This document shows positions 8,039 through 11,366 of a stretch of 64,000 nt of DNA, piece after piece. Within the stretch, counting starts at the first letter, position 1; each line of letters begins with the position of its first letter. The position numbers and the translations under genes are program-made. Under the pieces are notes generated by a model. That model saw only the letters and a program-made list of their open reading frames with translations. It was not told where the DNA came from and did not search any database. Origin of the DNA: Collinsella aerofaciens (GTDB lineage: Bacteria; Actinomycetota; Coriobacteriia; Coriobacteriales; Coriobacteriaceae); assembly GCF_005844325.1 (NCBI RefSeq), contig NZ_SPFY01000009.1, positions 1 to 64,000 of the forward strand. The letters are read 5' to 3'.

Positions 8039-9241
8039 CTACTCCTCCCCCTCGCCCTTGACCGCCAGCGGCCCCTCGAGGAACAGGCGCTCGTACTCGT
8101 AGGCGATGTGCTGCCAGCTGTAGGCAATGGCGACACGTGCCTTGGCGCGGCGACCCAGTTCGGAAATCTCGACCGCGTCCATGGCATCCGCACGCGCAAT
8201 CAGCGCGGCAAGATTGCCAGGCTCCTTGGTCCAGTACAGGGCCGCGCCCTCGGCCACCTCATGGTTGAAGCCAACCCCAAGTAGCAGATTCAGGTCGGTG
8301 GAACCCAGAGCCTCGAGCAGGCTCGGGTTCGTGCCGCCCACCTCGTGGCCGTGGAAATAGCCGTAGGCCTGCTCACGGATCTTCGCGAGGAGGTCACGGT
8401 CGTAGACCGTGCCCACGAACTTAATGCGGGAGTCGCGGCTGTAGTGCGTCCGCTCCTCAAGCTCGGCGAGGAACTTGTCGTTGACGTTGGTAATCAAGGC
8501 GAAGTCGCGCTCGGTGCTGCTAGACATGAACTCGCGGATCATTGTCTCGTAGTTGTTCTCCGGCACAAAGCGGCCAACCACGAGGTAGTAGCCCTTGGGC
8601 GAAAGCCCGTGCTCGGCACACCAGCCAGTAAAATTCGGGGCGTCGTCCGCAAGCGGGCTCCTATGTGTATCCGCACCGTAAGCGATAAACTTAGTGGCCG
8701 GTCTATAGGTCGGCGAATCGTACTCCTCGTGGATGTACCTCTCGATGTTCTTAGAGTCGCAGACCAGCAGATCGCAATTGCGGACCATCATGGACTCGGA
8801 GACCTTCCAGTAGCGGCGCACGGGGGCGCTCCACTTGGCGCGCTTCCACTCGTGCCCGTCTGGGTTCACGTAAAGTCTTCCACCCAAAGCGTGGATACGC
8901 TTCTGGAAGTGGGCGCAGAAGGGCCCGATGCGGCACGCCAAGACGTAAACAATCGGGTGCTTGACGTGGTTGTCCTCGACGTAGCGGCAGACGCGGCCGA
9001 GCGCCGCAACGTCGTACAAGATTGCCTGGGCGGGTCCCACGTCGGGAACCTTCACGTTGAAGCAGCGGGCGCCGTGATACTCGAACTCGCCATCCTCGCT
9101 GGCCTTGCAAGCCACATGGTACCTGATGCGAGGGTCGCCCTCGTGCGCCTCGGTCAACCGGTCGACAAAGGTCTCGTAGCCACCGTAATTGCCCGGAATG
9201 CCCTTAGAGCCTACAATGAAGATGTGTTGTGTTTCCGACAT
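8039..9241 (-). CDS. DUF1972/GT4 rhamnosyltransferase-like enzyme
   Basis: 400 residues. The N-terminus IFIVGSKGIPGNYGGYETFV is the hallmark of the DUF1972 domain found in WchF/Cps2T-type beta-1,4-rhamnosyltransferases, which act second in repeat-unit assembly. RLYVNPDGHEWKRAKW and a GT4 C-terminal lobe with YYLVVGRFVPENN, HGHEVGGTNPSLLEALG and NHEVAEGAALYW follow. Its position just after the initiating transferase and the rmlA gene in the same operon are consistent with adding L-rhamnose to the first sugar. The family is secure; the donor is inferred. Confidence 0.87.
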   Translation of the reverse strand: MSETQHIFIVGSKGIPGNYGGYETFVDRLTEAHEGDPRIRYHVACKASEDGEFEYHGARCFNVKVPDVGPAQAILYDVAALGRVCRYVEDNHVKHPIVYVLACRIGPFCAHFQKRIHALGGRLYVNPDGHEWKRAKWSAPVRRYWKVSESMMVRNCDLLVCDSKNIERYIHEEYDSPTYRPATKFIAYGADTHRSPLADDAPNFTGWCAEHGLSPKGYYLVVGRFVPENNYETMIREFMSSSTERDFALITNVNDKFLAELEERTHYSRDSRIKFVGTVYDRDLLAKIREQAYGYFHGHEVGGTNPSLLEALGSTDLNLLLGVGFNHEVAEGAALYWTKEPGNLAALIARADAMDAVEISELGRRAKARVAIAYSWQHIAYEYERLFLEGPLAVKGEGEE

Positions 9242-10020
9242 TAAGCTGCACCTTCCCCAGAGAGCATCGCCTTCAGCGTTCCGAATATCAACCGCAGGTC
9301 CTGGAGCAGACTGCGATTCTCTATGTAGCGAAGATCCAGCTCAACCATTTCGTTGAAGCCCAGATAGCTGCGGCCCATTACCTGCCAGGGCCCGCCGCAG
9401 CCGGGCTTTACGGCAAGGCGCTTCATGTCATGCTCGCTGTACAAGGCAACCTCGCGCGGCAGGCCGGGGCGCGGGCCAATGAGGTTCATTTGGCCCAAGA
9501 ACACGTTGATAAGCTGGGGCAGCTCGTCGATACTGTGCTTGCGAATGAAGTTGCCCACGCCGGGAATAATGCGCGGGTCGTGCTTCATTTTAAACATGGG
9601 GCCGGTGGCCTCGTTTTGAGCCTGCAAGTCCTTGAGCATTTGGTCTGCGTTGGGCACCATGCTGCGGAACTTATAGATCTTAAACAGGTAGAATGTGCCG
9701 TCTTTGCGCACGCGGCCCACGCGCCACTGCGAATAAAGGGGGCTGGCGCCCGGGCTCTTAATGCAAATGACCATGCTCAGAATTACCCCGGGTATAAAGA
9801 GCAATACCAAGGCTCCGCCGGCGGCGACAATGTCCACCGTACGCTTAACAACGCGGTAGAGTCTGCGCCCAAGCTCGGGCTTCACGCCGGAGTTCGCACC
9901 GCGCAGCATCTCGGTGGCCTCTTCGTTTGTAAGGTAATCCCCCGCAGCACCCGCTGCGGCAGGGACGGAATTCGCCATGGCAGCGGCGCACGTCTCCCGT
10001 GCACCCTGCTCCATGGTCAT
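9241..10020 (-). CDS. Undecaprenyl-phosphate sugar phosphotransferase
   Basis: Starts repeat-unit synthesis by moving a sugar-1-phosphate onto undecaprenyl phosphate. It has a cytoplasmic N-terminal segment, one hydrophobic hairpin (VAAGGALVLLFIPGVILSM) and the bacterial sugar transferase domain: LFKIYKFRSM, RKHSIDELPQLINVFLGQM, LIGPRPGLP and GCGGPWQVMGRS. It is the short form lacking the multi-span WbaP N-terminus. Start uncertain: ATG at 10018-10020 has GGAG nine bases upstream, and a TTG at 10033-10035 has its own purine-rich site. It follows loaP closely and its stop overlaps the next start. The sugar (galactose or glucose) cannot be decided. Confidence 0.9.
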   Translation of the reverse strand: MTMEQGARETCAAAMANSVPAAAGAAGDYLTNEEATEMLRGANSGVKPELGRRLYRVVKRTVDIVAAGGALVLLFIPGVILSMVICIKSPGASPLYSQWRVGRVRKDGTFYLFKIYKFRSMVPNADQMLKDLQAQNEATGPMFKMKHDPRIIPGVGNFIRKHSIDELPQLINVFLGQMNLIGPRPGLPREVALYSEHDMKRLAVKPGCGGPWQVMGRSYLGFNEMVELDLRYIENRSLLQDLRLIFGTLKAMLSGEGAA

Positions 10021-10089
10021 TATCGTAGGCTCCAAGAGCCCCTCCCCCGATACTTTTTTGCTTTCGGTCGTCCGCTTGCGAGCTTGCAG

Positions 10090-10635
10090 CTAGGCGATCG
10101 CTTTTCTGTGATTGCGCATGACGCGCTGTTCGTTTGAAAGCACCGCGAGGCCAACGCGGGTGGTTACGCGTCGGCCGCACAGGTTGAGCTCCAGATAAGC
10201 AGTGCATTTACGTCTATTAATGGTTTTGATGAGGCCCTCGTGGCCCAACAGCGGACCAGCCGTCACTACGACCTGGTCGCCCTCTTTTAAGGCCTCGCTC
10301 ATGGGCACCACGCGGTCTCCCCTATTGGTAAAACTGCCAATGAGCTGGGTCTCTTCTTTTGCCAACGGCACAAACTGACCGTCCTGGGAAAGCACCCGGG
10401 CAAAGTCATCCATGCGCAGCAGGTACTGTTGCACGGTACGGGGATCTGCCGTGTCGCAGATAAGATAACCGGGAAAGAGCGGCTTGGTCGTATTGACCCA
10501 TTCGCCGTGTACTTTGATCTCCGTTTGATATTGGGGATAAAAGAGCTCTTGCATGGCACCAGCCGGCACCATACGCTCGATGCGCTCGCGCATTACGTCT
10601 TCGCGACCGTTAATGACCTGAATCACATACCACAC
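10090..10635 (-). CDS. loaP: LoaP/NusG-like transcription antiterminator
   Basis: 181-residue NusG paralogue heading the polysaccharide operon. The N-terminal NGN domain opens WYVIQVINGREDVMRERIER and contains FYPQYQTEIKVHGEW and PLFPGYLI; a KOW motif follows near residues 118-145 (EGDQVVVTAGPLLGHEG). LoaP and other operon-specific NusG paralogues allow RNA polymerase to read through terminators in long polysaccharide operons. The GTG at 10633-10635 is preferred because AAGGGGG lies about eight bases upstream; the longest frame starts at 10644. An RNA hairpin in its leader is listed separately. It is not the housekeeping NusG, judging from its context and divergent sequence. Confidence 0.85.
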   Translation of the reverse strand: MWYVIQVINGREDVMRERIERMVPAGAMQELFYPQYQTEIKVHGEWVNTTKPLFPGYLICDTADPRTVQQYLLRMDDFARVLSQDGQFVPLAKEETQLIGSFTNRGDRVVPMSEALKEGDQVVVTAGPLLGHEGLIKTINRRKCTAYLELNLCGRRVTTRVGLAVLSNEQRVMRNHRKAIA

Positions 10636-10683
10636 GAGCACCACCCCCTTGCTGTCTTACGTGTGGCTCACGGGGTTTTGGTA

Positions 10684-10720
10684 TGGCTTCGCCAGTGCGC
10701 TTGTGCGCGAAGGCGCTCCA
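10684..10720 (-). promoter_or_regulatory. Small leader hairpin near the loaP start
   Basis: On the minus strand CTTCGC pairs with GCGAAG around a G+C-rich interior, 50-85 bases before the loaP start codon. It lies between the larger leader hairpin and the gene. Function unknown; it may be a second element of the same leader RNA. Confidence 0.3.
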
Positions 10721-10792
10721 TATTCAAACCCTGAGCCCAGTCAGACAAGCACGTGGCTCTGCCCCACCGTGAACGGTATATACAAAAGCAGC

Positions 10793-10837
10793 GCTGAGGT
10801 TGTTGGCATGTATCGCAAATACACCAACGACCTCAGC
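10793..10837 (-). promoter_or_regulatory. Long stem-loop in the loaP/polysaccharide leader
   Basis: A 14-bp stem (GCTGAGGT-x-GTTGG against CCAAC-x-ACCTCAGC, one mismatch) is extended by a two-base bulge, a 5-bp stem (TGTAT/ATACA) and a 5-base loop. It lies about 160 bases upstream of the loaP start in the untranslated leader. LoaP proteins recognise an RNA hairpin in the leaders of the operons they control, so this is a candidate recognition site. GCTGCTTTTG follows on the minus strand, so a weak attenuator is the alternative. Confidence 0.5.
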
Positions 10838-11366
10838 TGGCTGCGTGCGATCCAGTCAAGCGAATTCGAAACTGGACCGCACGCAAACAGCTGAAAGACT
10901 GCTTCACTTTGGCATACAAGCTATTAATGCATCTTAGAATTAAAGCAATGCAAATTAATAACGTCGCATGACTTCTTTATTGGAGCTCGTGGTGTTTCTG
11001 GCACCGCCGTTACGGCCGGATGCTGATCGACCCTGCGCTTTGCAACTTGCTGGAGCCGCGAGCACAGTTGAACTCATGTAACGTTAGGTATCCTAGCACA
11101 AGCTGTTAGTGAAACTGATTTGGCTTGTGGAGGACAACTTATCGTTCATTTAACGTGTTCAAGGGGGTTGTTTTGGGATGTTGTTCACATTGATGCAGGT
11201 TATTGAGGTACTGACGGTGATTAGGCGCGTTCCTGATGCCCAAATGGAACGGCGATCTACACTGATAATCGCGTTTGGCTAACAAACTATGTACAGACAC
11301 GGGAAAAAATTTGTGCAACTTTTTGTTGGCGTAGTTGGGGTTTGTGGCGCATGGTGTTTTGGCATT
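10838..11366. other. Non-coding region upstream of the polysaccharide operon
   Basis: About 530 bases with no convincing gene on either strand. It must contain the polysaccharide promoter; an A+T-rich part at about 10915-10965 (minus strand TTGCTT, 16 bases, TAATAG) is the best but weak candidate. No further long repeats or RNA genes were recognised. Confidence 0.45.

Follow-up and report, generated by a model that had tools for sequence, protein, structure and literature searches.

A probable LoaP-recognition RNA in the leader of a loaP-led polysaccharide operon of Collinsella aerofaciens

The loaP operon and the hairpins of its upstream leader

The window (i.e. the whole stretch of 64,000 nucleotides of Collinsella aerofaciens contig NZ_SPFY01000009.1 that was analysed) contains loaP on the minus strand at 10090..10644. 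The encoded protein scored 134 bits against the NCBIfam model NF033641 (antiterm_LoaP; curated cut-off of 125 bits) and has NGN/NusG (PF02357) and KOW (PF00467) domains; translation probably begins at the GTG at 10635 (MWYVIQ...). The first gene after loaP encodes a priming sugar transferase (Bac_transf; 9241..10035, minus strand), and the other same-strand genes located 3' of loaP encode a Cps2T rhamnosyltransferase, further glycosyltransferases, a repeat-unit polymerase, a flippase and Ugd. A prior sequence-only reading of this DNA had placed a NusG paralogue at the head of a polysaccharide operon with a structured RNA 5' of loaP itself, and both statements were borne out, the leader comprising two hairpins (HP1 and HP2) and a core RNA. 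An Rfam 15 scan of the window at gathering scores returned only tRNA whilst permissive Rfam scans produced chance-level matches only. The leader was present as a single copy in the genome, and a REP or MITE repeat was ruled out on this basis. No sigma-70 promoter was found in a scan of the leader. A block of ~100 nt located 5' of HP1 (10986-11085), and parted from it by a variable stretch, was 80–96% identical among relatives and is a possible promoter or operator region. The EAR (epsC) RNA of Bacillales, a structured RNA in the leaders of polysaccharide operons where it promotes read-through, is not known to be LoaP-linked; the window leader is likewise a structured leader RNA of a polysaccharide operon but has no Rfam match.

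HP2 (10793..10837, minus strand) was the hairpin highlighted by the sequence-only reading and exists as described, except that the '14-bp' stem contains one C.A mismatch and so consists of 8 + 6 pairs, with a 2-nt bulge and 5 apical pairs. The predicted fold has an energy of -24.1 kcal/mol (z -5.6) and none of 200 shuffles were equally stable. The hairpin also held up when covariation was checked in 21 genus relatives, as 7 of 15 pairs were changed on both sides. Its apical loop contains a nearly invariant UUUUGCGAUAC with UGCG, an UNCG-type sequence. The genus clade comprises 22 relatives (one with a broken loaP) having the same leader and LoaP proteins of 90–96% identity. Adjacent to HP2 is the larger HP1 (10834..10893, minus strand), a hairpin of 22 pairs (z -8.9) having 4 nt in common with HP2, such that the two structures compete for this GCUG. 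Joint analysis of HP1 and HP2 gave a covariation score of 0.227 as compared to 0.156 ± 0.008 for shuffled alignments, with double changes in 10 pairs, seven of which were in HP2. A possible closing helix (GCAGU/GCUGC; 10788..10902, minus strand) around both hairpins was paired in ~90% of cells but exhibited zero double changes in 21 leaders. The 3' base of HP1, GCAGCCAGCUG, resembles a GCAGG(A/G)AACUGC motif of other families. Motifs of this type were located at the base of a hairpin 5' of the core in 21 of 61 Coriobacteriia leaders and in 1 of 122 control stretches, and are probably the counterpart of HP1.

The stability of HP2, its covariation within the genus and its UNCG-type loop would fit the proposal that this hairpin is the LoaP-binding RNA, with read-through being controlled at the U-rich stretch that follows. 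HP2 was not recognised beyond the genus clade, however, and has been swapped for a quite different hairpin in a close relative (L012) whose LoaP is 92% identical. Attenuation at GCTGCTTTTG, the second element of this proposal, found no support, as the T run after HP2 is not conserved (i.e. TTTTG, CACTT, CACGC and CGCCT in relatives) and a scan of the window for intrinsic terminators between the leader element and loaP detected none. The core RNA is a far closer match to the known LoaP RNA than is HP2, whose role as the recognition RNA is considered very unlikely. Both HP1 and HP2 are regarded as accessory structures.

A conserved core RNA and its linkage to loaP

The core RNA (10717..10782, minus strand) sits 11 nt downstream of HP2 and has the order (C)AUAYC, helix P1 enclosing hairpin P2, and then the joint GNNUGAAUA. 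P2 (10742..10766, minus strand; columns 24-49 of alignment A2) folds locally. Comparison of 20 genus leaders indicated that a segment containing the core (10636..10785, minus strand) is more conserved than loaP, with mean pairwise identities per 25 nt of 93.7–99.6% for 10785-10636, of mostly 87–96% for the loaP coding sequence and of 69–87% for the HP2-containing stretch. The fold of the core in the window was only as stable as its shuffles (z 0.5), P1 being weak with two strong pairs. A model trained without the genus clade of the window (i.e. R2) ranked the core first in the window, at 20.9 bits versus 13.1 bits for the runner-up, and first in the whole genome (E 0.14). In an alignment of 36 sequences, 83% of cells were paired and 14 of 16 pairs were changed on both sides, giving a covariation score of 0.535 as compared to 0.279 ± 0.020 for shuffled alignments.

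Searches with the core model detected 143 matches in 100 of 396 Coriobacteriia genomes (~1/4). A same-strand LoaP match was located downstream of 126 of these, at distances of 26–571 nt (median 86). Inspection of the remaining 17 matches identified an intact or broken LoaP downstream of at least 11, and L030 and L028 also have LoaP downstream whilst L137 is at a contig end. No LoaP was present downstream of the matches in L127, L133 and L134, of which the latter two were weak (25.3 and 23.6 bits, respectively).

Several loci exhibited variations in arrangement. Tandem copies of the element precede a single loaP in G283 (contig C1, 1414768 and 1415250), and G086, G160 and G372 contain two consecutive loaP genes with the element in between. 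A further NusG-like paralogue (207 aa), which lacks the usual FPGY motif, is encoded directly 5' of another sugar-transferase-like gene (G000 contig C37, 535-1158, minus strand; L092), and models R1 and R2 reported no element at this paralogue. A sub-threshold match to the Collinsella-1 RNA was observed in L079 (1734-1929; 28 bits, gathering score of 35). In L074 (540-640, minus strand), GAAAAGAGGATGAATAGCTG has a perfect 20-nt complement 40 nt further along the strand, with TTTTCTTTT after it; the P1 3' strand could therefore form a terminator instead, a possible antiterminator/terminator switch in this one species.

Comparison with the LoaP hairpins of Bacillota

Among NusG-type proteins, LoaP alone is known to recognise a specific RNA; the target leaders that have been studied are two, both in one Bacillus. 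A small UNCG hairpin in these dfn and mln leaders is required by LoaP (PMC12691694). The window locus resembles this system in containing a member of the LoaP family and in the placement of the element before a long biosynthetic operon (PMC12691694, refs 53-55) but differs in that the element is 5' of loaP itself and that no leader terminator was found in the window. The dfnA leader hairpin of B. velezensis is CAAUCGCUGUUUCGGCACGUUG (L145, 4605-4626, minus strand), 5' of a long trans-acyltransferase gene, and the mln-type leader contains another copy. Of 25 Bacillota loci, 16 have the dfn hairpin in the vicinity of loaP, with chance-like matches excluded.

P2 has the same plan as the dfn hairpin, namely a stem, a bulge, two base pairs, a bulge and three base pairs. 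This arrangement of two single-nucleotide bulges separated by two pairs and topped by three apical pairs was found for P2 in alignment A2 with covariation, and the commonest form of P2 in Coriobacteriia (CAAUCGUCGC-loop-GCGCGUUG) has most letters in common with the dfn hairpin. A pattern made from the joint P2/dfn plan occurred 31 times inside elements and nowhere else in 363 kb. The window P2 follows the order of lower stem, bulge, CA/UG, bulge, AGC/GCU and loop CACGU, although its lower bulge is ambiguous in that the predicted fold closes it. This P2 is a divergent form, in which CA/UG replaces the CG/CG of dfn and a CACGU pentaloop replaces the UNCG, and hence lacks the UNCG tetraloop; loops of 5 nt predominate in Coriobacteriia. 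A strict search for UNCG hairpins, in which the stem had to be continuous, was uninformative, as the stem of dfn is itself bulged.

Model R1 gave a single 11-bit chance match in the 25 Bacillota LoaP loci, and a Bacillota-only model (i.e. R3) detected no elements in Coriobacteriia with default filters. With filters off, R3 matched 35 kb of Coriobacteriia loci at just two places, each match being full-length and exactly on the element (E 0.79 and 4). No joint model is presented for Coriobacteriia and Bacillota, as joint alignments misplaced the P1 3' strand of the latter.

A helix is also present at the P1 position in Bacillota, where all six pairs vary on both sides, with partner-shuffled flanks reaching the best-helix score in only 11 of 2000 trials. 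The small dfn hairpin as published includes neither P1 nor the 12-mer described below. In the dfn leader, P1 is CCUAUU/AAUAGG and the 10 nt located 5' of the hairpin correspond to the P1 5' strand plus linker. Deletion of the 10 nt immediately 5' of the dfn hairpin leads to loss of antitermination, and nothing similar to these nucleotides occurs at the equivalent place in the mln leader (PMC12691694). P1 could explain the former observation, and a helix kept by pairing and not by letters would account for both the deletion effect and the dissimilar mln sequence. This explanation stays a proposal since the mln leader, on which LoaP does act, contains P2 whilst neither a clear P1 in the usual position nor the 12-mer was found.

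Recognition of the hairpin by the B. velezensis LoaP is impaired by mutation of E40, R41 or I143. The corresponding residues of the window LoaP are I/K/I, such that I143 and a basic residue at 41 are kept whilst residue 40 is Ile and not Glu. Across Coriobacteriia, residue 40 is mostly K/R in proteins associated with an AUCG-type RNA and mostly I/M/T in those associated with a GCC-type RNA. Residue 40 may thus track the hairpin type, an association that is suggestive only because the sequences are related.

The core could alternatively be a riboswitch-like element that senses a ligand or exerts translational control of loaP without binding LoaP. The strong conservation of the core beyond its paired bases, its constant proximity to the loaP start, the closeness of the SD region and a long predicted fold (10650-10750) that ends near the SD are all compatible with such a function. 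Against these stand the match of P2 to an experimentally defined LoaP hairpin and four Bacillota loci (L155, L158, L161 and L162) in which the element is 3' of loaP and before the next gene, and a riboswitch-like role is judged unlikely. The leader contains a conserved, covarying RNA with class-wide linkage to loaP and an architectural match to the dfn hairpin. With this architecture and linkage on one side and the genus-only distribution of HP2 and its replacement in L012 on the other, LoaP most likely recognises the core and not, as had been proposed, HP2.

A downstream 12-mer and a proposed route of LoaP loading

Downstream of the core is a 12-mer, GGCGAAGCCATA (10682..10693, minus strand), which contains a C-GAA-G triloop. 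A consensus, GGGCGAAGCTATG, was fixed from Bacillota sequences and the 150 nt after the core were then searched in Coriobacteriia leaders. Matches at ≥10 of 13 positions were present in 39 of 65 leaders, in 1 of 65 upstream controls and in 3% of shuffles, with nearly all of the Coriobacteriia matches being 13–45 nt after the core. P1 and the downstream GGCGAAGCYATG element occur in Bacillota too, in which most elements then carry GGGCGAAGCUAUG downstream. A degenerate copy of the 12-mer in dfn, GGGAGAAGTGTG, is ~60–70 nt after the hairpin, slightly short of the published dfn pause, which was mapped only to about halfway between the hairpin and the terminator.

This 12-mer resembles the ops pause site of RfaH, which like LoaP is a NusG paralogue acting on polysaccharide operons (PMC5995543). 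The ops element (GGCGGTAGCGTG) is a consensus pause with a non-template-strand loop closed by C3:G8 and with T11 and G12 favouring pausing (PMC5995543). Both sequences have G1 G2 C3 G4 and T11, a short non-template-strand loop and a C-G closing pair, whereas the 12-mer has a GAA triloop (C3:G7) in place of the GGTA loop (C3:G8) of ops. At position 12, the 12-mer has an A in the genus of the window and a G in many other Coriobacteriia as compared to the TG of ops at positions 11-12. The LoaP system also differs from RfaH/ops in having an additional RNA hairpin. On these resemblances, the 12-mer is a candidate pause site.

Judged from sequence comparisons, the leader probably carries at 10717-10782 a Coriobacteriia-type LoaP-recognition RNA that would load LoaP for read-through of the operon under positive autogenous control. 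As the product of the first gene, LoaP would recognise P2 in the growing transcript, where the enclosing P1 would stabilise this hairpin. Polymerase would then meet the 12-mer GGCGAAGCCATA ~24 nt further on, and a pause there, which in the leader would fall at GGCGAAGC, may help LoaP to move from RNA to polymerase. Once modified by LoaP, polymerase would transcribe past termination signals within the long operon. In the scan for intrinsic terminators, 10 of 16 Bacillota hairpins had one downstream (that of dfn being the known terminator), as compared to almost none of the Coriobacteriia elements. Leader attenuation is a Bacillota arrangement, and LoaP would therefore act further down the operon in Coriobacteriia. 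Terminator-like sites within the operon numbered 11 versus 10.4 expected (i.e. no excess).

As loaP is the first gene of the operon, positive autogenous control would result, and autogenous control through the core is a plausible and natural reading of the layout. An RNA-binding site ahead of the gene for its own protein is also a frequent layout for negative feedback, and LoaP might act on its own leader to lower loaP expression with the operon being regulated elsewhere. Such autorepression is most improbable, as the known action of LoaP is antitermination (PMC12691694) and the element heads the whole operon.

A broader and more tentative possibility, for which the odds are rated as rather low, is that LoaP loading depends on a signal in two parts, conserved in both Actinomycetota and Bacillota and consisting of the P1/P2 module and an ops-like GGCGAAGCYATG with a small non-template-strand loop tens of nucleotides downstream. 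If true, LoaP would be both recruited through an RNA tether and, in the manner of RfaH, loaded where polymerase pauses. P1 offers a structural reason for an unexplained published deletion and the 12-mer is a concrete candidate for a LoaP-aiding pause. The covarying motif, located 5' of loaP in roughly one in four of the Coriobacteriia genomes sampled, allows LoaP targets to be predicted in gut bacteria and exhibits a recognition hairpin that varies together with the LoaP protein.
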